Positions 10,239-32,890 of a stretch of DNA of 33,811 bases are shown piece by piece; the stretch's first letter is position 1; each line of letters opens with the position of its first letter. A program made the position numbers and the translations under genes. This DNA is from a virus. The DNA lies in the IMG/VR virus record IMGVR_UViG_3300021389_000082, positions 1 to 33,811 of that record; one strand, given 5' to 3'. The notes under the pieces were generated by a model. That model was given only the letters and a program-made list of their open reading frames with translations, was not told the origin of the DNA and searched no databases.

Positions 10239-12488
10239 ATGACTTTTGAAGAATGGGATGCAATAACTCCTGACTATGGACAGCCCGGTGGTTACATAAA
10301 TGGCATGGGAAGTACTATGACTATACCTAGTACAAGAGAATCTAGATTAAGAGATTATCAAAATTCTTTATCACCACAAGCTATAGATGAAATAGTTACA
10401 AATGTTATGCAAAGAGATGAACCTACTTTATTAACAAATGAGTTTGGTGCTGTATTAGATAGTCCTGAAATTATTGCAGGTTCTCCAGACAAAGCAAAGT
10501 TTGAAGTGTCTATAGCAAATGATGGCGCTATAGAAACTAAATCACAGACTACTATGTCAAACGGTGATACTACTGAAATAAAAAACAAAACACAAAATGA
10601 TACAGACAAAAGTATTTTAGATACTGTATTAGCAACTTTAGGTATTGGAGAAGCTAAAGCATCAACTGATAGTGGTTCTTTTATTACAAGCACAGATCAA
10701 TTAGAAACGCCAGCTCCTACTGGAGTTTACGAGTCAGATTATTTTGATGATGTAAGTGGCGAATTAATTAAGAGTAGCGCAATTGATCCTAAGCAAGATA
10801 ATTTAACTTCTGAATTATTTGATGGTACATACAATCCTGATTTATACGAGAATCCTAAATATGTTATAGATGGCTCTGGAGCTTTTGTTCCAAATCCAAA
10901 CTATGATCCAGAAGCTGGTCAAGGAGCAAAAAGTTCTGCATATCCTGATACACCTGAAGGTAATCTTAATAGAGTTATTGCAAAGACACCTTACGATGAA
11001 ACGCAGTCTGTTATGGCAGCTCTTAAAATAGATACAGACACACCAATAACAGCTGAAAGTTTTATAGCAGAATTAGAAAGACAAAAAGAATTAAAAAAAA
11101 TAGCAGAGAGTTCTATTTTAGATACAACTGAATTACCAATTGTCACTGAAGATAAATCAAAAGCAACTGGAGAAGAAAAAGAAGCAACAAAAGATATGGT
11201 TCAAGAAGCTGTTCAAGTTATTGCTAGCGAGCAGCCAAATGAATTAACTCGTTTAAATGATTTTGCTTTGTGGGCTGATGGTGTTTCTGATGACCAAGCT
11301 ATAAGAGAAGCTGAAGCTGTATTAGAACAAATTGCAAATGCACCTACAGTAACTGACAGGTTTAAAAAAGCAATGGGTGTGGCTTTTGGAGCTATGTTAT
11401 TTGGAGATGATTTTGTTACAGCAATGAACACAGGACTAGGGGTAGTCGCTGATGATTATTCAGCAGAAGCAACCGCAGCTCAAGAAGCAAGAGATGCACA
11501 AATAGAATTGCAACAAGAAATAGCTAAAGAGCAAAGAGCTTTACAAAACGATTTGTTTAAAGCTGATTACAATTCTTCAAGAGATGCACAAGAAGCAATT
11601 ACAAAAATGATTGCAGAATATGAAATGAAACTTCCTGAAGAAGAACGTAAGGCAGCAGCTAATAGAATGAAAGAAAACATTGCTGCTGGTAGAGTTATTA
11701 TGGAAGACACTATCAACTCTATAGGTGAAGATAAAGCAAACTTTATTGATTTAGATGGAGAGTGGGCAGGTTTATTAGTTGCACTTGAAGAATCAAAACC
11801 AGCAGGGTTTTCAGTAGATGTAACAGAGCCGTTGCAAAGAGCAGCTTTAAATGGTTTGTTTAGAAAATATATAACTGAACAAAAATCTATGAGTGAGTAT
11901 GGAAATAAAGCAGCTCCTCTTGCATCTTATGCACAAGAATTCTTTATTAAGAATGAGCTAAGAGAGTTTACTGAAGGCATGGGTGCTATTGATCCTAATA
12001 TAGTTTCACCATCAAGAGCTTATCTAGAAGACAGACCATTTATTGGTCCAATGAATGCAGATGGTGTAAGGACCAAACAAGTTTATGTTGGTAATTCTAA
12101 AGAGTTAGGACCACTTATTAAGGCTGGAACTGAAGCTACTCAACAACTTGGTACAGAAATAGAAAAATTAGGAGCTTCTGGTTTAGGTGAAAGAGGCACA
12201 ACTATTCTTTTGTATAAAGATTACACCGACTTTATGAAACAATCTTTTGACAAAGGTGATGGTGTATTTGAAACAATGGAAAAAGTTGCTTATCAAAAAG
12301 GTTGGGGTCCATTTACACAATTTGTTTTAGTTCACATGAAAAACAAGTTAACTCTTGACAATATAGGTAAAAACTTTGATTCTTTGTTAGCAAATGAATC
12401 AGAAGAAATTGATGTTAGAGCTTTGAAAATGTATATGGAAACTGGAGCTTACGATTTAGAACAAATAAAACGTGAGCTAAACAAATAA
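10239..12488 (+). CDS. Large internal virion protein (749 aa)
   Basis: 749 residues, preceded by AAGGAG. The first 400 residues are acidic, low in aromatic residues and likely extended. At about 325-550 there is a long helical region (SAEATAAQEARDAQIELQQ, EERKAAANRMKENIAAGR) typical of coiled coils. A globular C-terminal part follows (GAIDPNIVSPSRAYLEDRPF, then ERGTTILLYKDYTDF, YQKGWGPFTQFVLVHMKNK). I find no transglycosylase, peptidase or nuclease motif. Its place, first of three ever larger proteins, corresponds to T7 gp15 or an equivalent ejection protein, but sequence similarity to gp15 is not evident. Confidence 0.7.
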   Translation: MTFEEWDAITPDYGQPGGYINGMGSTMTIPSTRESRLRDYQNSLSPQAIDEIVTNVMQRDEPTLLTNEFGAVLDSPEIIAGSPDKAKFEVSIANDGAIETKSQTTMSNGDTTEIKNKTQNDTDKSILDTVLATLGIGEAKASTDSGSFITSTDQLETPAPTGVYESDYFDDVSGELIKSSAIDPKQDNLTSELFDGTYNPDLYENPKYVIDGSGAFVPNPNYDPEAGQGAKSSAYPDTPEGNLNRVIAKTPYDETQSVMAALKIDTDTPITAESFIAELERQKELKKIAESSILDTTELPIVTEDKSKATGEEKEATKDMVQEAVQVIASEQPNELTRLNDFALWADGVSDDQAIREAEAVLEQIANAPTVTDRFKKAMGVAFGAMLFGDDFVTAMNTGLGVVADDYSAEATAAQEARDAQIELQQEIAKEQRALQNDLFKADYNSSRDAQEAITKMIAEYEMKLPEEERKAAANRMKENIAAGRVIMEDTINSIGEDKANFIDLDGEWAGLLVALEESKPAGFSVDVTEPLQRAALNGLFRKYITEQKSMSEYGNKAAPLASYAQEFFIKNELREFTEGMGAIDPNIVSPSRAYLEDRPFIGPMNADGVRTKQVYVGNSKELGPLIKAGTEATQQLGTEIEKLGASGLGERGTTILLYKDYTDFMKQSFDKGDGVFETMEKVAYQKGWGPFTQFVLVHMKNKLTLDNIGKNFDSLLANESEEIDVRALKMYMETGAYDLEQIKRELNK

Positions 12489-12496
12489 GGAGTCAC

Positions 12497-15400
12497 ATGG
12501 CTACTGAAATACAACGTTCGAAAAGAATTAATGCTTTGCTAGATATACTTCCAGAGGTTCGCACAGTTGATGCAGATACAGTTCTTGATGATCGTGGACC
12601 AGTACGTTTTGTCAATGCTCGTGCGCCTGAAACACAACATATTATTCCTCAAGGTTTAAAAAAAGCAGAAGCTGGTGGACAGTTTTATACTGAGCTGTAC
12701 GAAAAACTTTGGAATGAATCTGGAATGAATCAGGTATATCGTACTGGCAAGAAAGGATATTATGGTCGTGACTTAGGTGGATTGCAAGATAAATACGGCA
12801 ATGACTTTATGGACAAAGCTGTCTATGAAGGCATTGCTACTCCACAAAATAAACATCAGCGTGAGCTGTATGACATGGGTTTGTTTGAAAGAGCATTTCA
12901 AACAGATATTTCTGGAGATGAAAACACAGACATATGGTCGCAAGCCAGAGACGAAATAAATGACTATCAATCGAAAACATCTATTGGTATTAGGCGTACT
13001 GCTTTAAATGAAGTTGAGTTACGTGATTATCAAGATTATTATGGAGCTACATATAGTCCGTTTTTTGATTCACAAGTACAGTTTAGACATCCCGGTAGAA
13101 CATTAGATAATGAATCGACATCTGATTTTGCTGGAGGTTGGTTACAAGGATGGGGTGGAATAAAAGAAAGTTTAAACAACGCAATCTCTTTAGGTGGAGA
13201 TGTAATTGGTAGTCAGTATATGTTTGACAGAGGTCAAATAAGAGCTGATGAATCTGCATATAGATTGTCACAAATGCCTAGAATCAAAAATGATTTTACT
13301 CAAATAGAAAACTTTGGTGATTTTGTTGATTGGGCACAAACATCTACTGGCGTAGCTTTGCCATACATATTAGGTATAGTTGGCTCAGCTGTTGCTGGTG
13401 CAGCAGTTACTGCTACAGCTCCAATTACTGGAATCTTAGGCACAATTTTTGGTGCTGCTTTAACTTGGCAAGCTCCAATGGCATGGATATATGCTGGTGA
13501 AGTATATGGAAACATGGAAGGTGACATGGATCAACGTAATGCTGCTATCGGATTAACTGGTGGTATTGCAATGGCATCTTTAGATAGATTAGGACTGGCT
13601 GGTATATTTAGTACTGGTCAAGTTTTAAAAAGACAAGGACTAGAAGAGGTTGCAAAGGCTTATGCAAAGAAAGAAGGTGTTGGCATAGACGAAGCACGAC
13701 TTAAAGTACAAGATGTTTTTGGAAACATTACTGTAGCTGCATTAAAAGATTTAGATACTATTGCTACATTACAAATGAGCAAAGCTGTTCTTGCAAAACA
13801 AACTGGCAAAGGAGTTTTGTTAGGTGCAGGAATAGAAGGATTAACAGAAGTTGCTCAAGAAAGTATTTCATATCAGGGTGGTAGACTAGGTACTGACGAA
13901 CAAATAAGAAAGCCTTTTGATGTAGATGAATACAAAAGAATCATGGCTAATGCAGCAGCAGGTGGTATGTTTCTTGGTGGAGCTATTAGAGGTACAACAA
14001 CTTTTACAAGTGAAGTTGGCGGATTTCAAAAGCTCAAACGTCAAGGGAAGATGGACGCTAAAGTTGAAGGCAGATATATTGGCGGACGACTTGAAGATAA
14101 CCTAGACAAAATGGTACAAAATATAGATGCTAACAAACCAAAGCATGGAACGCCACCACCAACAGCGCCATATGGCTCACCTGAGTATTACAACCAAAGA
14201 AATTCAGCAGGTGAATTAGAGTCTTCTCAAAGTATAGCAGAAGAAATAAGTGCTGAAAGAAAGAAGGGTGATTATGAAGACAAGTCTAAATGGAGAGGTG
14301 GAGCAAAAACAATTTACCAAAACTTTAAAGAGTTTCCTAAAAGGTTTACACAAAAGTTAGGTGCGTTTTGGGAAAACAAAGTATTAAACAATCCAAACAT
14401 ATCTGACAAAGGCAAAGAAGCATTTCAAATTTTACAAACAATAGCTGGCTCTGGTAAATTTTCTAGCATGCAAGGTGTTGATTTGTTTGAAATGAAAAGA
14501 ATGATGCAGTCTGGTTTGATGGCTGAGGTTAAAACAATACAAGATGATTTGTATATGTTACTTGGTGTTGGTTTAGAGGCTGGTAGATTTAATACTGGAA
14601 GAACTAAATCAGAGGCAAACAGTTTGTTTCTTGATTACTTAGATGAAAGAGCTTCTGGTAAAAGCACTACACAAGTCTCAGCCAAGTTTAAACCTTATAT
14701 TAATAAGCTAGAAGAATTACGTTTAGCTATTGGTGGTCAAGAAAAGAAAGGCACAGGTGTTACAGACAAACTTTATGATGCAGTTGATGGTTTGATTGCA
14801 CGTACTGGACCAAATAAAAAACCATTTTGGTTTCAAAAAAGTAAGCGTCTTAAAAAAGATACTGTACTTGAAAACAAAGATGAGTTTATTAAAACATTAG
14901 AAGACAATGGTTGGACATCTGAACAAGCAACAGATTTTTTTGACATGATTGAAAATGGTCCTACTGGTTATGACTTGAGCACAGTACATGAGTTAGGTTT
15001 TATGAACTTTCCGTCTAAGTCTTTAAGAACTGGTAAAGGAATTCTTGAAGATGTATTTGGAGATGACTCTAAGTTTTTAGAAAACGATCCGTTTCAAAGG
15101 CTTATGGAAAACATTCAAGAACAAACTAACTATGCAATAGATAGAAGATATCTGGGTGAGAATGGAAACAACATAAACATTTTGCTTAAAATAATTAAAG
15201 ATGAAATGGGTGGTGATTGGGATTCACGTATTGCTACACACTTTATGGATTATATTGCAGCAAGTCGTGGTGATTATAGAAGATTAAAAAGTAAAAAACT
15301 TGAAAGACTTATAGGTCATATTACTTTCTTTAATACTTTTGGTCATCTTGATTTATCAGCATTAGCGTCAACACCGGAAGCAGCAATTGTTTTGCTCGGT

Positions 15401-16639
15401 GCAAAAAATGATAAGAAGCTTATGCCTATGATTGCTAAAGGTGTTGAAGAGTTTTCACAAAAATTACGCAATGATATTAGTGACAACTGGTCATATATAA
15501 ATCCAAAGTCTGGTGTTACTCGTGATAAATATCTTAGAAATTTAATAGACTTTTATAGATATGGTTATGACACTGGTGCACATGGTGCAATTGGACAGGT
15601 TGGTATTGATGAAGCTGTGTATAAAGCATCAAAAGTAAAAGAAGCTGTTATGAAAGCATTCTTTTCTGTTAACTTGTTAAAAGTTTATACAGATGCTACA
15701 AGAGTAGGTCGTCTGTCGCTTGCCAATGATATGATATTTGGTGATTTTGAAATCATATCAATGTTTCCTGAAGGCAGCGCAGAAAGAAGTTCAGGTTTAT
15801 ATATAGATGCATTTGAAAGATTAAGAGAGTTAAATATTGATCCTGTTCCTGCAGCAGAAACATACAAGGTTATGGTTGACCTAGCAAAAAGAAAGTTAGG
15901 TGAGGGTGCAGACCCTGAAGCTATCTATGAAACAATGATTCAGTACAATCCAGACTTTATGAAGACTATGGATATTGCACGAGTTAGTTTTATTGATAAT
16001 GCTATTGCTCATCCAACAGCTATGAATAGACCTATATGGTATTCTAATCCTGCATATAGAATCTTTACTCAGTATAATGGTTTTATGTCTGTGTTTACTG
16101 CACAGCTTCTTCCTAAAATTTGGAGAAGAATTAAACGTGGCGATCCTACTGCACGATACAATGCTGTAGCTGTAGCTGCTTCAATGATTGCATTAGGTTT
16201 TCTTAATCAAATGTTAAAAGATGAATGGAAGTATGATGGTGCACCGGGTTGGATTACTACTAAAGGTTATGTTCAAAGAGGTATATCATCTTCAGGTTTA
16301 ATTGGAACACCAGAAAGATTGTTATCTGCTATCAGTCCAATTTACGACATGAGTAAAACATGGAATGAAAGTAGAATGGATAATATTTTAAGAAGAGCTG
16401 GTCATGCAATTACAGAAGGACTTGGTCCAACGTATGCACATGGTGAGCAATTAAGCAAGATATTTTTAAATCAACTTGAAGGTAATAAGAAAATGAGAAA
16501 CTTTTATCTTTCAAAAGAAATACCTTTCTTAGGTAAGTTAAAAGACTTCAAAGATTATAATCTTGGAGTAAATGATTCTGGTATGGATTTAAATGAAACA
16601 TTAAAAAATTCTATACCAACTATTAGATATCCGTTATAA
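12497..16639 (+). CDS. Giant internal virion protein with N-terminal staphylococcal-nuclease-like domain
   Basis: 1380 residues after a good binding site (AAGGAG). Residues 20-130 follow the staphylococcal nuclease pattern: VDADT (D27 for D21), VRF (R37 for R35), APE (E45 for E43), YYGRDLGGL (R91 for R87) and AVYEGIA. The position of metal ligand D40 is Arg (R42), so activity is uncertain. A hydrophobic Ala/Gly-rich region at about 283-337 and weaker ones near 445-500 (KGVLLGAGIEGLTEVAQES, ANAAAGGMFLGGAI) could insert in or span membranes. The rest is helical, and the C-terminal part (around 1180-1290) carries RPIWYSNPAYRIFTQYNGF and an AVAVAASMIALGFLNQML helix. The order of domains suggests an ejected protein that passes the envelope with the DNA. 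No lytic transglycosylase motif is seen. Confidence 0.78.
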   Translation: MATEIQRSKRINALLDILPEVRTVDADTVLDDRGPVRFVNARAPETQHIIPQGLKKAEAGGQFYTELYEKLWNESGMNQVYRTGKKGYYGRDLGGLQDKYGNDFMDKAVYEGIATPQNKHQRELYDMGLFERAFQTDISGDENTDIWSQARDEINDYQSKTSIGIRRTALNEVELRDYQDYYGATYSPFFDSQVQFRHPGRTLDNESTSDFAGGWLQGWGGIKESLNNAISLGGDVIGSQYMFDRGQIRADESAYRLSQMPRIKNDFTQIENFGDFVDWAQTSTGVALPYILGIVGSAVAGAAVTATAPITGILGTIFGAALTWQAPMAWIYAGEVYGNMEGDMDQRNAAIGLTGGIAMASLDRLGLAGIFSTGQVLKRQGLEEVAKAYAKKEGVGIDEARLKVQDVFGNITVAALKDLDTIATLQMSKAVLAKQTGKGVLLGAGIEGLTEVAQESISYQGGRLGTDEQIRKPFDVDEYKRIMANAAAGGMFLGGAIRGTTTFTSEVGGFQKLKRQGKMDAKVEGRYIGGRLEDNLDKMVQNIDANKPKHGTPPPTAPYGSPEYYNQRNSAGELESSQSIAEEISAERKKGDYEDKSKWRGGAKTIYQNFKEFPKRFTQKLGAFWENKVLNNPNISDKGKEAFQILQTIAGSGKFSSMQGVDLFEMKRMMQSGLMAEVKTIQDDLYMLLGVGLEAGRFNTGRTKSEANSLFLDYLDERASGKSTTQVSAKFKPYINKLEELRLAIGGQEKKGTGVTDKLYDAVDGLIARTGPNKKPFWFQKSKRLKKDTVLENKDEFIKTLEDNGWTSEQATDFFDMIENGPTGYDLSTVHELGFMNFPSKSLRTGKGILEDVFGDDSKFLENDPFQRLMENIQEQTNYAIDRRYLGENGNNINILLKIIKDEMGGDWDSRIATHFMDYIAASRGDYRRLKSKKLERLIGHITFFNTFGHLDLSALASTPEAAIVLLGAKNDKKLMPMIAKGVEEFSQKLRNDISDNWSYINPKSGVTRDKYLRNLIDFYRYGYDTGAHGAIGQVGIDEAVYKASKVKEAVMKAFFSVNLLKVYTDATRVGRLSLANDMIFGDFEIISMFPEGSAERSSGLYIDAFERLRELNIDPVPAAETYKVMVDLAKRKLGEGADPEAIYETMIQYNPDFMKTMDIARVSFIDNAIAHPTAMNRPIWYSNPAYRIFTQYNGFMSVFTAQLLPKIWRRIKRGDPTARYNAVAVAASMIALGFLNQMLKDEWKYDGAPGWITTKGYVQRGISSSGLIGTPERLLSAISPIYDMSKTWNESRMDNILRRAGHAITEGLGPTYAHGEQLSKIFLNQLEGNKKMRNFYLSKEIPFLGKLKDFKDYNLGVNDSGMDLNETLKNSIPTIRYPL

Positions 16640-16650
16640 AGGAGTTATAA

Positions 16651-19600
16651 ATGGCTTTACAACTTAGACCAACAACAGGGTCTGGACAAGAAACGTTTAG
16701 ACCAGACAGACCGCAATCATCTAGGATGAATGCATTGATTGAGGCATTAAATGTTGGACCAATTACTGAAGGTGCATTAGATAGAATTCATGATGAAATG
16801 AGAACTATTTATCCATCTGTTGTTGATGAAAGTACACAACAAATAAGTCCAACAGTTGGAGGTGGAGTTGAACCTGCACGATCTGTTGAAAAAACTTATC
16901 AGCCTAGTTCAATAGGTTATAAAGGTCCGGGAGATGTTCAAGCAAGAGTAGCTGGCAATGTAGGATTAAGTCAAGAAAGATTTAGTCCAGAGTTAATGCA
17001 ACGAATAGCTCCTAACTATGCTGGATTAGACCCTAATCAAGACAAGCCATACTTATCTCCTGATGAAGAGATATATTATTTGCAAGAATTTGCTAGACTG
17101 AAAGGAGTAACTACATTAGAAGTAGAGCAAAGCCCAGCTTTAACAGAAGAGTTTGGCAGATATCTTGGTCAAAAAACAATGACTATGGATAATGATAGGT
17201 ATGTTAATTACACTAGGGAAGGACAAAGTTTTGGCGGAAGAACTCCAACGCTTTATAGAACGCCTTCACAAATTAGTAATTATAATCGTCAAGCATATCC
17301 TGATGCAGCAGGCAATCCAGAATTTGCTATTACTGATTTAGCAAGAGGTGACAGAGAACAAATAGTTCAGAACCTTGTAGACTATGGAATGTTAAGAGAG
17401 CATGCAGAAGAAAGATATGATGAAGCTGTAAAATTAAATCCAGAGGAAAGTGTGTTAGCAAAAAACATGCACTTGATTGCAGCAGCAGCTACTTCTAAAA
17501 AAGCTAAACAAGAATATGCTTATCATGAAAATGGTTTGTTTGGTATAGCTGACAAGGTTCATAAATCTTTAATGGGAACTATGCGTTCAGGACCAATGGG
17601 TCCAGCTGCAATAGAAAGGTTTGCTATGAAGATTGAACAAGGCAATCCAAATTTCTCAAGGTCTCAAGCCAGAGATTTTCTTTATAGTTTTGTTTCTAGT
17701 TATGCAATGGTTAAAGAAGCAAATCCAAATGCTGGTCGAGCTTACGCTGACTTTATGGTTCTTGCTGTATTACATCACGCAAAAACTAAACTATCTAATT
17801 ACGAAAGAAAGAAAAGTTCTGATGATGCAGACAGACAAATGAGAAACGAGTCTACAGAAGAAGCAGCTATAAGAGGCGAAAGAAGTTTAATGGTTGGCAT
17901 TTCTGATGATAGAAAAATTGGCAAGTTAATACTTGACGCTATGGGCTTTGCACAAGCAAGAAGCGAAGAACATGCAATTGCAGGATCAATGGCTAAGAAC
18001 ATGATGGTTGATGCTTTTGAATCACAAGATGCTAATCCAGATAGTGAAATGTTTGGTGATTGGAATGAACAATTGTTTCAAAAAGAAATGATTACTGAAA
18101 CTAATTCAGATGGTTCTATAAAGTTAGATGAAAAGAATCAGCCAAGAAAACATATGAACTTTACTCTTACATCTAAAGGTTTAGACATAGCTGAAAGATT
18201 AACACCGATGATTGAAGTTGTAATGCCCGGTGCTGTTAAAGATGTTAGGTATAACAGAAGACCTGTAGTGCCATCAATTGAATCTGTAACAAAGTCAAGG
18301 TCAGGTGGTCCAAGAAAAATGGTTGGTAAAACAATCAAACAAACAGGTAAGCCAGTAGATATAGGTGATGTTACTGAAATGGACGAGATGAAAAACGTTT
18401 CAGAAAACACAGGTGTTGGCATTAATATTGCTATGGCTGCGCTTGTACAAGAAATATTAACTGAGTTTCAAAACATACTTGCACGCAATGGCAACGATAC
18501 AAACTCTATTGGTTTTTTAAATGACTATAAGAACTCTATGATGTTTGCCATTGAGCATTCGAAGTATCAAAACATGAAAGGTGATGGCACAGGAAACAGA
18601 GGTATTTATGGTGATCGTCCCGGTGTTGTTTTAAAAAGAGATAGACAAGGTAATTTTCTTAAAACAAATAAACAATCTGGTATTGATGAAATAGTAGAAC
18701 AAGAGTTTGCTGATGAGTTAGGTGACTTTAGTGATAGAATTAAAGACGGACAGTTCGATAGTGCTATAGAATTTATTCAAAGAAATGTTGTTAATGGTGT
18801 ATCAAAAGAATTTTTCTATGATTATTTTTATGGATTAAACACTAGATTAAATGTTGACCAGAACGTAGGAAATTATCAACATAACAAATTGATTAGGTCT
18901 TTAATTGAATCACACAAGAAGTTTGCATATGAATTAAATAATCCTATGCACGTTATATCTTTGAAAGCTGGAATTATGAAACGTTTTGGTTACGACAAGA
19001 TGGATGTCTTAACAGCAGCAGATCAATTTGATAAAGAAGTTGATTTGTGGGAAGGAACTACTACAGCAGAAAAAATAAACATAGGTAAAAATTGGGAAGG
19101 CTGGGCTTCAGTTGCAGCAATTGCAGAAGCAGTCCAATTTAATCAGGCAATCAAAGACCCAAATGTTCCAGTATATACATCAGGTTTTTACACAGAAGTT
19201 GATGGACTTACTAATGGTATGGCTCACTCTGCAGCACAGGCTGGTGACATGAGAACTGGATGGGGTGCAGGTTTGTTTGATCCAATTCGTTATGACCATT
19301 GGGTTAGAAACTATGATTTAATTGAAAAGTTTCAAAGAGAAGGAAATCTTGATGCGTTGGCAGATTTAGAACATGAACAAGGAAACTCAATAAACTTTGC
19401 TGTTTACTTAGATGCTTACAATAGAGTTAATGAAAGCATGAAGAATGACATAAGACGTTTATGGGATGGCTCATCTAAACCCGGTGTACCTATGAGTATA
19501 GGTTTGCCCGGCTTGATAACTGATGCTGCACATGAAGGTGCAATGGCTATCATGCAGTTAGCACATGCAGGTGGTGACGGCAAAGGTCAAGGCAGCAGAA

Positions 19601-20856
19601 AGTTTGTTGATGCTATACGTATTATGTCTAAAGAAGACCCAGTAACTGGAAAACTACGTAATAAATTAGGTCGTTCATTTGTTAAAAAACCAGTAATGAT
19701 TTTTGGTTATGGCGCAGGTGCTGCAAGAATAAGAGAGTCAGTTAGAAATTTTGTAGATGATTTGTTTCTTAAAGACCCTAGTTTACGTGAAGAGTTTATA
19801 GCTAATGGTATAGATATTGATAAAGAATTTATTGATCCATTAGGTGTTATTGCAGCAGAAGCAGTTAATCAAAGCTTTGGAATAATAAAAGAGTTTGCAA
19901 CAACACTTTCTGAAACTGCTACAGTAGCTAAACAACAAGGCTTTCCACTTAACATACCTACTTTGGCTGGCTATAAAATAAATCTTGGTGGTGTTACTTA
20001 TCAAGCAGACGAAGGCAACAGGGTTAGATATAAGTATAATCCAGGTGCTAGTGCTTTAGAAAGAGATAGATATTTAACAAGCACTGATCCTGAGTATGTT
20101 AAAAAAGAAAAAACACCAAATGCATTTGAAGGTATATCTCAAATGATGGTGTCTGATTGGAATCCTTTCTTTGAAACAAATGGATTTCTTAAGGCAGCTA
20201 CTCAGATTACTGTAATGTTAAATCATGCTAATGACAATATTAATATGAACAGACATTTAGTTAATGTTCATAAAAGAAAGCTAGCCAATAGAAAAAATCC
20301 TATTGAGTACAATTCAAGTGTTACAGAAGCAGGCAACACAGCGCTACATATTTTTGATGGCTTGCTTGTTATGCCTATAGAAGCAGAGATGCACACTAAA
20401 GAGTTAAACAAAGTGTTTGGTAACATGGCTAAAGCAAATAAAGGTCATACTAGTTTTGTTATAGATGCGTTAACATATGAATTGCACGCTAATGGAGACA
20501 GAATATCTGACCCTAAAACTGATTTAGGCACTAGGGGAGATGTTTTTAAAATTGGTGCAGTAGAATTTGACACATCATTTAAAAGATTGTTAAACTCAGA
20601 AGGAGAAGCAGTGCTAGCAACACATGAAACGTGGGGCACATGGCATCCGGGATTAGATAAGTATGCTTTCCAATGGAAAGATGATTCTGCAACAGTTTTA
20701 GAAAAGTTAAATCTTTTTGACAATAGAAGACAAAAGATGGCAAACAATATTTCTAATTACCATCAGTTTTTTTGGGCAACACAAGATGTTAATACACTTC
20801 TAAACAATAATCCAGATAGAGTATCTGCACACGTTAAACCAAGAAACAAAGTATAA
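16651..20856 (+). CDS. Candidate virion-packaged single-subunit RNA polymerase
   Basis: 1401 residues after a good binding site (AAAGGAG). In order it shows four motifs of the T7/N4 RNA polymerase family: DYFYGLNTRLN (R732, like the DxxGR motif), EVDGLTNGMAHSAA (D851, motif A), RSFVKKPVMIFGYG (R1008, K1012, Y1020, motif B; aligns without gaps to T7 R627, K631 and Y639) and HIFDGLLVMPIEA (D1236, motif C; Pro six residues on, as in T7 after D812). The motif C His is Phe. The N-terminal 700 residues are unlike T7 polymerase and may serve packaging, ejection or promoter binding. It is the last gene of the internal virion series, the context of N4's virion polymerase. N4's protein is about 2.5 times longer. 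Proposed role: enters with DNA and transcribes early genes. Confidence 0.8.
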   Translation: MALQLRPTTGSGQETFRPDRPQSSRMNALIEALNVGPITEGALDRIHDEMRTIYPSVVDESTQQISPTVGGGVEPARSVEKTYQPSSIGYKGPGDVQARVAGNVGLSQERFSPELMQRIAPNYAGLDPNQDKPYLSPDEEIYYLQEFARLKGVTTLEVEQSPALTEEFGRYLGQKTMTMDNDRYVNYTREGQSFGGRTPTLYRTPSQISNYNRQAYPDAAGNPEFAITDLARGDREQIVQNLVDYGMLREHAEERYDEAVKLNPEESVLAKNMHLIAAAATSKKAKQEYAYHENGLFGIADKVHKSLMGTMRSGPMGPAAIERFAMKIEQGNPNFSRSQARDFLYSFVSSYAMVKEANPNAGRAYADFMVLAVLHHAKTKLSNYERKKSSDDADRQMRNESTEEAAIRGERSLMVGISDDRKIGKLILDAMGFAQARSEEHAIAGSMAKNMMVDAFESQDANPDSEMFGDWNEQLFQKEMITETNSDGSIKLDEKNQPRKHMNFTLTSKGLDIAERLTPMIEVVMPGAVKDVRYNRRPVVPSIESVTKSRSGGPRKMVGKTIKQTGKPVDIGDVTEMDEMKNVSENTGVGINIAMAALVQEILTEFQNILARNGNDTNSIGFLNDYKNSMMFAIEHSKYQNMKGDGTGNRGIYGDRPGVVLKRDRQGNFLKTNKQSGIDEIVEQEFADELGDFSDRIKDGQFDSAIEFIQRNVVNGVSKEFFYDYFYGLNTRLNVDQNVGNYQHNKLIRSLIESHKKFAYELNNPMHVISLKAGIMKRFGYDKMDVLTAADQFDKEVDLWEGTTTAEKINIGKNWEGWASVAAIAEAVQFNQAIKDPNVPVYTSGFYTEVDGLTNGMAHSAAQAGDMRTGWGAGLFDPIRYDHWVRNYDLIEKFQREGNLDALADLEHEQGNSINFAVYLDAYNRVNESMKNDIRRLWDGSSKPGVPMSIGLPGLITDAAHEGAMAIMQLAHAGGDGKGQGSRKFVDAIRIMSKEDPVTGKLRNKLGRSFVKKPVMIFGYGAGAARIRESVRNFVDDLFLKDPSLREEFIANGIDIDKEFIDPLGVIAAEAVNQSFGIIKEFATTLSETATVAKQQGFPLNIPTLAGYKINLGGVTYQADEGNRVRYKYNPGASALERDRYLTSTDPEYVKKEKTPNAFEGISQMMVSDWNPFFETNGFLKAATQITVMLNHANDNINMNRHLVNVHKRKLANRKNPIEYNSSVTEAGNTALHIFDGLLVMPIEAEMHTKELNKVFGNMAKANKGHTSFVIDALTYELHANGDRISDPKTDLGTRGDVFKIGAVEFDTSFKRLLNSEGEAVLATHETWGTWHPGLDKYAFQWKDDSATVLEKLNLFDNRRQKMANNISNYHQFFWATQDVNTLLNNNPDRVSAHVKPRNKV

Positions 20857-20902: not shown

Positions 20903-21190
20903 TTAATAGCCTCGCTTTTGCTTGACTTGATTTAATAAATTTCTAGCTTCTTGTCTACCTTTGTTTGCAACTTTTTTAGCCCAAGAGTTTGCTTCTTGCT
21001 CAGACCTTCCCATTTTAATTGCAGCATTGTATTCTAATTCAAGATTCTTTTCATAAGTATCATTGATTAACCAGTTGTTTATTTCTGGTGTGTTAGCTAA
21101 CTTTGGTGGAACACCATAGGAATCTACATATTCCTTATCTGTTACACCATCCAGAGCTAGAATATTATGTTCTCTTTTCTTCTCTGCCAT
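20903..21190 (-). CDS. Hypothetical small charged protein, last gene of the early block
   Basis: 95 residues; AGGA precedes the ATG. The chain starts with a charged stretch (AEKKREHNILALDG), has a Pro/Asn segment (VPPKLANTPEINNWLIND) and ends in a long basic helix (AIKMGRSEQEANSWAKKVANKGRQEARNLLNQVKQKRGY reads as helix-turn-helix-like). DNA or RNA contact is possible because of the basic end, but no family is recognised. It ends against the shared terminator at 20861-20899. Confidence 0.7.
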   Translation of the reverse strand: MAEKKREHNILALDGVTDKEYVDSYGVPPKLANTPEINNWLINDTYEKNLELEYNAAIKMGRSEQEANSWAKKVANKGRQEARNLLNQVKQKRGY

Positions 21191-29139: not shown

Positions 29140-29160
29140 AAAGCCACTGAAAGTGGCTTT
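29140..29160. promoter_or_regulatory. Perfect 9-bp hairpin with three-base loop
   Basis: AAAGCCACT and AGTGGCTTT are perfect inverted repeats around a three-base loop (GAA on the plus strand). N4 virion polymerase promoters are short hairpins with three-base loops on the template strand; for rightward-to-leftward (minus) transcription the template is the plus strand, whose loop has a central purine. This is a candidate only: the stem is longer than in N4 and the expected start-site sequence is not evident. Confidence 0.35.
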
Positions 29161-30228: not shown

Positions 30229-30234
30229 CCTCCT
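30229..30234 (-). promoter_or_regulatory. Ribosome binding site deciding the start at 30224
   Basis: AGGAGG, four bases before ATG and overlapping the upstream TAG stop. It indicates coupled translation and rules in favour of the ATG over an upstream TTG. Confidence 0.75.
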
Positions 30235-32677
30235 AGCAAAAGAAGAAGTCTGACCCGTATATATCTTCCAGTATTAAATTACCTACTGAAGGTATATTTT
30301 TATTAAAACTTTCATCGTTCCATATTATTTCTTCACGCATTTTTGCAAATATATCTTTAGCATACATCTTTATAAATTCGCTTTTTGTTGTTTGTATTAA
30401 TTGTTCAACGTCACATGCATGTACACTGAAACTATCATGTATAGCACCAAAGCTTGGCAAGTCTAATTTATTTATTACTAAAGACATGTGGCTTGCATCG
30501 TATGAGTGTACCCAGTTAGCACCAATAGCAGATAGATGTTCAGCTAGTGCAGGTTTATCTGTTACGTCTAAATATACATGACTTATTCTATGTGTTTGTA
30601 TATAGCCTTTGTATACTTTTTTACGTGCTACCCATTTTTGAGTGAGTACCGGGAAACCACTTGGTGTATTCCATGATATGTCCTTCATGTTCATGTCTTT
30701 TAATTTGTGTTCAACCAGTGCTTGTAAATATTTTTTAATTTCTACAGGTCCATGACAAATTGAATCATAAGCTTCAACTAAATCTTTACCTAAAGCTTTT
30801 GAATCCGATCGTGTTATGTTGTATGTAGATGTTATTCCAGCATCATAACAATCTTGATATATTATTTCACCTATTTTTCTTGCGCCTGCATCATATGCAC
30901 GTGTCATAGAGCCACGTTTGCTTATACCTTTACGTATTAGTTTCATTGGTATGTGTTGCATTTTGTTACCAATTTGAGTTTTTTGATTTAATTCTAATAT
31001 TTTCTTACCCATTACTAAATAAAAATCTTTAGGCATTTGCATTGGCATTAATCCTACGAGCTTACCAGCTTTTTCATCTAAAGACATTGCTGCTAAATGT
31101 TGCGTACCGTTGTTAACTCCGTCAATTGAGATTGGCATTGATGAATAATATGGTTCGCCAGTGAGGGCGCTGCCAATTATTCCTCCTATTTCAAAACACA
31201 ATGATAAAAATACCCATGGTTTTTCAGCTGACATCCAGTATTTTTGTGTGCTAATTGGGTTTTCAGCTACGTTTAATATCATGTCAATGTGTTCAATAGT
31301 CCAATTATGTTTATCTAACACACCCATTTTGTCTACTGAGATGTCCACTAAGCCATCATTTTCAAGAGATGTTTTGTAATCTAACTCTAACCATTCTTGT
31401 AAAGGTAACTCGTCTATTTTGTACGTTTGATTAAATGATGTAGCTGCATGTATAAATGTATATTCTGCACCTTTTTGGTCAACAACTTTTTCTTCAGCAA
31501 ATAAAAAATGTCCTCGCGCTAAATCATTTGATTGATAACTAAAGTATGGATCACGATTATAAATACGTCCACGGTAATCTAAGTACATTGATTGATAAAA
31601 TTTGTAACCCAACCAACCCGGTGAATTATTGTTACCGTTTATTGTTTCTAAAATCGCTCTGTTTCTTGTTGCTTGTGACTGGATGCGAAGGCAGTATTGC
31701 TTGTCCGTCCAACGCCTATTTTCAAGGTTGTATCTATCTTTTACTTTTTGTAATTTTATTTGTGTTTCTTTTATTTTAATTTGGTTTTTTAATTTATTAA
31801 TTCTTAGATTAAGCTTTTCAATTTCTTTTTCTAGTATGGGTACAGAGGAAGAGTTTCCTAATTCAGGTTCAAACAAATCTTGTTCTCTGTATAACAACAT
31901 GCCTTTCAAATGTTTATTTACATGCTCACGTTTAATGTCTATTGTGTCAAACATTATTACCATACCATCACTGTTTATTAGTTCTATTTTTGTGTTTGTG
32001 AGTTGTTGAGTGAGTTGTAAACTTACAGCAGCGACTTGTGGGTTGATTTGCCATTGTACGTTTTCAAGTTTGTTAATAGATTTATAAAAGCATTTATTAT
32101 TATAGCTGTCATCTATATCTACATTAGATTTGACTAATCTTTCTTTAACACCATTGGTATTACGAAAACCTCTTATCCATTTTTTATATTTATAACGTGA
32201 TATCCCGGTACGTTGAGTTTGATCTATTGAGATTTTAAATAATTTCTCACCCATTTCTAGTTTGTATGGATTGTAGTTAAATTTCTTTTTGATATTTTGT
32301 AAATACACTTCTTCTATACGAAAATATGGCTCACGGGCTAAGATAAGGTACTTTTCTTCGATTAAAACGTCTAAGATGAAGTCCCCTAGCATTATTGATG
32401 TTTTGTTGCTGTAATCGAATTCTGTGAGGTTTAAGATATTTATGCAATAACTGCCAATTTTTGCACTTGTGTTTGTTAATTTTGTCGAGCCGTTGTCTTT
32501 TTTAAATTGTTGAATAAGAAAATCAAACGTCATATTCAAAATTTTTACAGTTCGATAATCATTGTACACACACTGAGCATCACGAAATAATCGTGCAGCG
32601 TGTGTGTTGTTATGATTTCTTGAAGTTATTTTGTATTCTAATATGTCAGCAAGCTGATTAATTAAATTTGTTTGCAC
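30233..32677 (-). CDS. T7-like single-subunit RNA polymerase
   Basis: 814 residues (T7: 883), GTG start with AGGAGGT four bases upstream. Motifs: LDYRGRIYNRD (D367, R371), motif A SIDGVNNGTQH (D519), motif B ISKRGSMTRAYDAG (K587, Y595) and motif C AIHDSFSVH (D748). The C-terminus YGSDFFFC recalls the hydrophobic foot of T7 polymerase. Two differences from T7: motif B has Tyr-Asp rather than Tyr-Gly, and Lys583 stands where T7 has R627. It likely transcribes the middle and late genes, including the structural block, from its own promoters; a direct repeat lies just upstream. The polymerase is in one chain, unlike N4's split RNAP II. Confidence 0.96.
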   Translation of the reverse strand: MQTNLINQLADILEYKITSRNHNNTHAARLFRDAQCVYNDYRTVKILNMTFDFLIQQFKKDNGSTKLTNTSAKIGSYCINILNLTEFDYSNKTSIMLGDFILDVLIEEKYLILAREPYFRIEEVYLQNIKKKFNYNPYKLEMGEKLFKISIDQTQRTGISRYKYKKWIRGFRNTNGVKERLVKSNVDIDDSYNNKCFYKSINKLENVQWQINPQVAAVSLQLTQQLTNTKIELINSDGMVIMFDTIDIKREHVNKHLKGMLLYREQDLFEPELGNSSSVPILEKEIEKLNLRINKLKNQIKIKETQIKLQKVKDRYNLENRRWTDKQYCLRIQSQATRNRAILETINGNNNSPGWLGYKFYQSMYLDYRGRIYNRDPYFSYQSNDLARGHFLFAEEKVVDQKGAEYTFIHAATSFNQTYKIDELPLQEWLELDYKTSLENDGLVDISVDKMGVLDKHNWTIEHIDMILNVAENPISTQKYWMSAEKPWVFLSLCFEIGGIIGSALTGEPYYSSMPISIDGVNNGTQHLAAMSLDEKAGKLVGLMPMQMPKDFYLVMGKKILELNQKTQIGNKMQHIPMKLIRKGISKRGSMTRAYDAGARKIGEIIYQDCYDAGITSTYNITRSDSKALGKDLVEAYDSICHGPVEIKKYLQALVEHKLKDMNMKDISWNTPSGFPVLTQKWVARKKVYKGYIQTHRISHVYLDVTDKPALAEHLSAIGANWVHSYDASHMSLVINKLDLPSFGAIHDSFSVHACDVEQLIQTTKSEFIKMYAKDIFAKMREEIIWNDESFNKNIPSVGNLILEDIYGSDFFFC

Positions 32678-32750: not shown

Positions 32751-32786
32751 GAAAAAAATGTGGAGCACCGCTATTAACAGTGCTCC
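32751..32786 (-). terminator. Rho-independent terminator upstream of the RNA polymerase gene
   Basis: GGAGCAC and GTGCTCC pair (plus an inner wobble and G-C pair) around a seven-base loop; the minus strand continues ACATTTTTTTC. It lies between the first small-gene operon and the RNA polymerase, so the polymerase needs its own promoter or read-through. Confidence 0.85.
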
Positions 32787-32791
32787 TATAA

Positions 32792-32890
32792 TTATTTTTG
32801 CCTTCTCTTTTTTAAGTTTTTTGCTGAGATTATGTTTATTGATATCACAACAAGCCATGCACATAATGTTACAAAACCAATGAATAGCAT
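32792..32890 (-). CDS. 32-residue single-pass membrane micro-protein
   Basis: The ATG shares TAATG with the upstream stop. The product is one membrane helix (LFIGFVTLCAWLVVISINII, residues 2-21) followed by a basic tail ending KNLKKRRQK, giving a clear inside-positive C-terminus. The stop lies five bases before the terminator stem. An alternative 61-codon frame from a TTG at 32897 would run through the terminator and is rejected. Early membrane micro-proteins of this type often affect the host envelope, but no specific role can be given. Confidence 0.68.
   Translation of the reverse strand: MLFIGFVTLCAWLVVISINIISAKNLKKRRQK

Follow-up and report, generated by a model that had tools for sequence, protein, structure and literature searches.

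Phage N4 packages an RNA polymerase (RNAP) in its virion and injects it into the host. Crassvirales likewise package and inject a virion RNAP, an unrelated enzyme with double-psi beta-barrels like those of the multisubunit RNAPs. The virion RNAPs (vRNAPs) of schitoviruses are giant proteins of 2842–3820 residues among reference members (PMC10654107). The C-terminal region of the N4 enzyme includes a domain that autoinhibits it, and the protein also forms part of the DNA ejectosome (PMC12633501). N4-like vRNAPs have been said to be restricted to N4-like phages (PMC5512222), and a survey of vRNAPs dropped candidates shorter than 2500 residues (PMC10654107). Outside Schitoviridae, a vRNAP was found by PSI-BLAST as open reading frame (ORF) 30 of the Poorviridae phage vB_PunP_Y3 (PMC11654794). 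Here we describe P0001, a 1401-residue predicted polymerase of this type encoded at positions 16651–20856 (+ strand) of IMG/VR virus record IMGVR_UViG_3300021389_000082. The window, as we call the whole stretch analyzed, is this 33.8-kb record, which is probably a fragment of a phage known from environmental DNA alone.

A first-pass annotation made from the sequence had read P0001 as a single-subunit RNAP, and the ORF position, its length and every residue that it named (R732, D851, R1008/K1012/Y1020, and D1236) proved exact. In an ungapped check of the protein, motifs T, A, B, and C stood in the right order with all catalytic residues present. Motif T (18844–18897, +) comprises R732, N741, Q743, K746, and R749, which correspond to N4 R424, N432, Q434, K437, and R440. 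Motif A (19195–19218, +) reads E849-V-D851-G-L-T-N-G, aligning with N4 E557 and D559, and shares the form ExDGxTNG with the schitovirus vRNAPs. Motif B (19672–19710, +), R1008-x3-K1012-x7-Y1020, corresponds to N4 R666/K670/Y678 and, in the exact ungapped match that had been claimed, to T7 R627/K631/Y639. Motif C (20350–20376, +), I-F-D1236-G...P1242, corresponds to the IFDG of N4 (D951) and to T7 D812. The proline six residues past D1236 does recur after T7 D812, as had been pointed out, but it is not diagnostic, being absent from N4-type enzymes and from the T7-like RNAP of the window itself (HDSFSVHAC). Residues 849–856, EVDGLTNG, carry the ExDGxxxG signature by which N4-vRNAPs are defined (PMC10654107). 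P0001 was also matched by Pfam PF00940 (RNA_pol; E=1.4e-5; 24.6 bits, above the cut-off of 22) and by PHROG 414 'RNA polymerase' (E=4.7e-8). The Pfam and PHROG results, together with profile matches that beat shuffled controls, the predicted fold, and the phylogenetic tree, bear out the assignment to the single-subunit RNAPs.

Relatives of P0001 were collected by iterated IMG/VR searches, which returned 14 loci (L001, L002, L030–L040, and L042; L035 and L036 are near-identical). The complete proteins of this family have 1023–1668 residues and are 20–49% identical to P0001, except for that of L001, which is 97% identical. The family alignment holds 13 sequences, namely P0001 and 12 relatives, 11 of which lie in the 20–49% range. 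No variation among the 13 is seen at R732, D851, R1008, K1012, Y1020, or D1236, nor at N741, Q743, R749, E849, G852, N855, G856, G1237, or P1242. In N4, K437, R440, and E557 bind the initiating nucleoside triphosphate (NTP), with K437 and R440 contacting it (PMC4496689); of their equivalents in P0001 (K746, R749, and E849), the last two do not vary among the 13 members, and 11 of these also have K746. Comparison of P0001 with its L001 homolog gave a ratio of nonsynonymous to synonymous substitution rates (dN/dS) of 0.0196/0.244 (0.08), a sign of purifying selection. A tblastn search of 50,697 phage records with P0001 and with the L030 protein found no match, and no P0001 relative turned up in a scan of the genome collection, so that scan offers no link to a host or prophage. 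Two loci have distinctive features. The largest member (1668 residues, L037:7046–12052) carries a Pfam RNase_T 3'-5' exonuclease domain (residues 327–502, E=8.3e-13) ahead of the polymerase domain; judged by these matches it is an exonuclease–polymerase fusion, and it is presumably ejected as such. At L041:9656–13845, a locus additional to the 14, the polymerase gene is broken into three ORFs of 443, 520, and 448 residues, reflecting either a decayed gene or assembly errors.

Profile comparisons assigned P0001 to the N4 type. When P0001 alone was compared by hhalign with a profile of 12 schitovirus vRNAPs, the match covered motifs T, A, and B with E=1.4e-8, versus 0.012 for a T7-type profile. 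The family profile matched the N4 mini-vRNAP profile with E=8.8e-22 over 757 columns, versus 2.3e-8 for the T7-type profile; in control comparisons, the reversed N4 profile gave 0.33, 20 column-shuffled N4 profiles gave 0.11–0.94, and the neighboring virion protein gave 0.1. The family reads ExDGxTNG in motif A and IFDG or VFDG in motif C, like N4 and its closer kin, whereas T7 has DGSCSG and HDSF. In a maximum likelihood tree of the polymerase core, the compact proteins formed one clade (support 95/93) whose sister group comprises the schitovirus vRNAPs and four other vRNAP-like proteins, and the two groups were joined with support of 100/100 to the exclusion of the T7-type RNAPs. On these sequence comparisons, P0001 is assigned specifically to the N4 vRNAP type, beyond mere membership of the T7 family, and T7-type enzymes are not its nearest group among the single-subunit RNAPs. 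The suggestion that it represents a distinct, compact class is likewise sustained by the separate clade and by the profile and fold comparisons. Distant vRNAP-like proteins near the schitovirus vRNAPs were seen at L043 (1464 residues, cut at the locus end), L044 (3817), L045 (2360), and L046 (1862), the last on a 111-kb contig, which is unusual for an N4-type phage.

An AlphaFold2 model of P0001 residues 202–1401 had a mean predicted local distance difference test score (pLDDT) of 67.8, with values of 80–92 across much of the catalytic core, and a predicted template modeling score of 0.65. The best 50 PDB matches found with Foldseek were without exception single-subunit RNAPs, from mitochondria, T7, and N4. 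Aligned with VIA-align, the model matched T7 RNAP (8dh5) with Z 24.3 over 535 residues and N4 mini-vRNAP with Z 21.9 over 704 residues (3c46) and Z 21.7 over 740 residues (3c3l), in both cases across the whole core. This whole-core alignment bears indirectly on the refuting condition set in the first-pass annotation, that D851, K1012, Y1020, and D1236 fail to converge in one active site. By the modeled fold, T7 and N4 are tied or almost tied, and the preference for N4 comes from the sequence. A phmmer search of PDB sequences with P0001 returned no polymerase match, though the fold comparison succeeded. The protein can be divided into an N-terminal extension of ~262 residues, a polymerase domain at ~263–1374, and a tail of 27 residues; because the structural alignment ends at residue 1374, almost nothing follows the polymerase domain.

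P0001 therefore resembles N4 gp50 and the schitovirus vRNAPs in its catalytic domain (the mini-vRNAP, residues 998–2103 of gp50), in its four motifs with ExDGxTNG and IFDG, in the equivalents of K437, R440, and E557, in its late-operon site beside ejection proteins, and in the company of a second phage RNAP for later genes. It is far shorter, as had been noted: at 1401 residues in a family of 1023–1668, it is less than half as long as the N4 protein, and it lacks both the 900-residue N-terminal domain and the ~1400-residue C-terminal region bearing HExxH. The phage backbone also differs, as does the second RNAP, a single chain here and a gp15/gp16 heterodimer in N4. With T7-type RNAPs (T7 gp1 and mitochondrial RNAP) P0001 shares the fold and the catalytic residues, but its sequence is nearer to N4, it falls in a separate clade, and it is encoded with virion proteins instead of early genes. 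Y3 ORF30, whose gene has 10266 bases, is of full N4 size and accompanies an N4-gp56-type capsid; it gave no tblastn match to P0001.

The late (+) series ends with the P0001 gene, which lies 11 bases past the gene for a 1380-residue virion protein and is convergent to the early module, so the earlier placement at the end of an ejection-protein series holds. The 1380-residue ejection-type protein (12497–16639, +) matches PHROG 6958 'virion structural protein' (E=5.3e-20) and precedes the polymerase gene in 13 related loci; used as a query against the viral contigs, it returned no match. Upstream lies the gene for a probable second ejection-type protein of 749 residues (10239–12488, +), so designated by its position, with homologs in L031, L033, L035/L036, and L039–L041. 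Downstream, a 95-residue gene (20903–21190, –) converges on the polymerase gene; blastp found its counterparts in the family and, with weak matches, in two CRP-7-group contigs. This order of virion protein, polymerase, and small convergent gene is kept in related loci wherever the flank is present.

The opposite-strand module of the window encodes ribonucleotide reductase, a helicase, primase-like proteins, and a canonical T7-like single-chain RNAP of 814 residues with a GTG start (30233–32677, –; Pfam PF00940, E=1.8e-60; PHROG 414, E=9e-91). This second RNAP, missing from the first-pass annotation, sits in the early/replication module and has catalytic residues R371, D519, K587, Y595, and D748. 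In ten related records, a canonical RNAP and the compact polymerase occur on the same contig; no canonical RNAP was found in G001, G005, G016, and G018, which are short or end ~7 kb or less past the polymerase gene. Just upstream of the canonical RNAP gene, at 32762–32786 (–), lies a strong terminator-like hairpin of 11 pairs followed by ACATTTTTTT, so that gene may have its own promoter.

No terminase, portal, or capsid gene was recognized in the window. The large terminase subunit, portal, and major capsid proteins of related contigs are 38–44% identical to those of the cultured roseophage CRP-7, which argues that the phage is neither a schitovirus nor T7-like. The second RNAP, a single 814-residue chain with no heterodimeric RNAPII, likewise departs from the schitovirus pattern. 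The neighboring genes had earlier been taken as T7-like, which did not hold: the recognizable ones resemble LUZ24/PaP3-type podoviruses and CRP-7. From these similarities, we classify the phage as a predicted short-tailed relative of CRP-7. The LUZ24-like phage NV1 and Vibrio phage BA6, which share neighboring structural genes, lack a large gene of this kind at the polymerase position.

These data make it highly probable that P0001 is a compact member of the N4 vRNAP lineage that is made late, packaged, and ejected to start early transcription before the T7-like RNAP takes over. P0001 would be produced late in infection, be packed into the capsid along with the other ejection proteins, and reach the next host together with the DNA or ahead of it. 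In that cell it would transcribe the earliest genes, initiating at promoters that, as in N4, are probably hairpins formed in single-stranded template DNA. The early products would include the T7-like RNAP, which would then transcribe the middle and late genes, the role of N4 RNAPII. We infer packaging from the position of the gene in the ejection-protein operon; an enzyme of vRNAP lineage made from a late operon makes most sense acting in the next infection. As P0001 lacks the autoinhibitory C-terminal domain of N4, its activity before and after ejection would have to be controlled otherwise.

N4 vRNAP recognizes hairpins with 3-nt loops (PMC4496689), and a hairpin scan that recovered the three N4 early hairpins upstream of gp1, gp2, and gp15 as a control was applied to the related contigs. 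In contig G009, which carries the relative at L042, the sequence GGAAGACAC-(GAT/GCT/GCT)-GTGTCTTC-TAGGTAG occurs three times at the start of the early module (~32192–32210, 32852–32870, and 34517–34535), each time with an 8-bp stem and a 3-nt loop, and two of the copies lie ~50 nt before start codons. The copies are identical at 25–27 of 28 positions, against a maximum of 21 in 100 shuffles. A pattern scan of all viral contigs found five stretches, one being G009 itself and the others four fragments from its phage group (L070, L071, L072, and L074), in which the hairpins lie upstream of early genes. The loops across the five stretches are GAT, GCT, and GTT, and the four fragments are too short to show the polymerase gene. 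Two weaker hairpins precede the first early gene of G004, a contig nearer to the window; 4 of 100 shuffles yielded a pair as similar to each other. A hairpin of the window at 29140–29160 was rejected as a promoter, its A/T flanks being terminator-like. A search for repeated 12-mers returned only ribosome-binding-site-like and coding repeats, and a sigma-70 promoter scan gave no excess over shuffles. The use of hairpin promoters by the compact enzyme is a lead and no proof.

Several observations count against a packaged, hairpin-dependent N4-type enzyme. A late-operon position is by itself no proof of packaging. The N4-specific Pfam domains (plug, helical, and vRNAP_dom) went undetected in P0001 at E<=1, although these models are narrow, N4 itself matching them. 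The family profile, searched against PDB sequences with hmmsearch, returned no polymerase match. Contigs G007, G014, and G015 have no repeated hairpin, nor does the window have such a promoter hairpin, though the start of its early module lies outside the window.

N4 itself has two phage-encoded RNAPs that work within the cell, each at its own time, and where a phage has just one T7-type RNAP, that enzyme serves the late genes. By these precedents, P0001 could be an active N4-type RNAP that stays unpackaged and works late within the cell, transcribing late genes or priming DNA replication, all the more as packaging is deduced from gene position. We regard this as improbable: the nearest kin of P0001 are virion enzymes, in every locus that includes the flank its gene comes after those of ejection-type proteins within one operon, the early module already encodes a canonical RNAP, and a product of the late operon would arrive too late to begin late transcription. 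P0001 might instead be a vRNAP descendant that has kept the fold, lost the activity, and serves as a structural ejection protein, a role that could persist alone since N4 vRNAP is also in the DNA ejectosome (PMC12633501). A relic would be expected to lose some active-site residues; the invariance of six catalytic and two of three initiating-NTP residues at 20–49% identity makes this very unlikely. Finally, the Pfam RNA_pol match and the fold match to T7 (Z 24.3) would suit an ordinary T7-type RNAP gene relocated to the late region. We give this almost no credence, because P0001 groups with the N4 vRNAPs by its ExDGxTNG and IFDG motifs, by hhalign, and in the tree, and because the genome has its own T7-type enzyme elsewhere.

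CRP-7 shares the gene layout of the window. Its gp33 (QBQ72826.1, 1235 residues, 'hypothetical protein', L004:17859–21566) occupies the polymerase position, after a homolog of the 1380-residue protein, and its gp30 is a canonical RNAP; the CRP-7 paper names ORF30 alone as RNA polymerase (PMC6918029). No polymerase match to gp33 was found in Pfam or PHROG. Against a combined polymerase profile, the C-terminal part of gp33 matched motif C and the preceding region with E-values of 0.0011 and 2.4e-4, the best of 30 shuffles reaching 0.067; the rest of the gp33 sequence gave nothing significant. Matches to the N4, T7, and compact profiles taken singly were not significant, a weak test because N4 against a small T7 set was also not significant (E 0.04). 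AlphaFold gave no usable fold for the gp33 group (pLDDT 38.5), and motifs read by eye (KxxxR...YG and IHDA) are a lead only. From the profile match, gp33 is probably a divergent RNAP relative, though unproven. Two genes upstream lies the gene for the large CRP-7 protein gp35 (L004:25696–29367), the N-terminal part of which matches a lysozyme-like family (Pfam Pesticin, E=3.6e-6), as would be expected if it is ejected and breaches the cell wall.

In comparison with the literature in open-licence papers, P0001 is a compact version of the N4 virion RNAP that is new and belongs to a second lineage of phages; an earlier report elsewhere is possible. The phage could probably start reading its own genes without host RNAP. 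A broader picture, which we consider evenly poised between right and wrong, is that a widespread CRP-7-like short-tailed lineage (~45–58 kb) transcribes independently of host RNAP, with a compact ejected N4-type RNAP acting on hairpin early promoters and handing over to a single-chain T7-like RNAP. In that picture, an ancient ejected polymerase would be shared with the schitoviruses, the giant N4 enzyme would represent an elaboration to which C-terminal autoinhibition was added later, and CRP-7 gp33 would be a third, highly diverged branch, found in an isolated phage. Phages of this lineage are predicted to be able to transcribe their early genes with host RNAP blocked, and the family could yield small hairpin-promoter polymerases for use in vitro. 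From a compact natural form it can also be seen which regions of the 3500-residue N4 protein may be unnecessary for packaging, ejection, and transcription, a question that thereby becomes testable.

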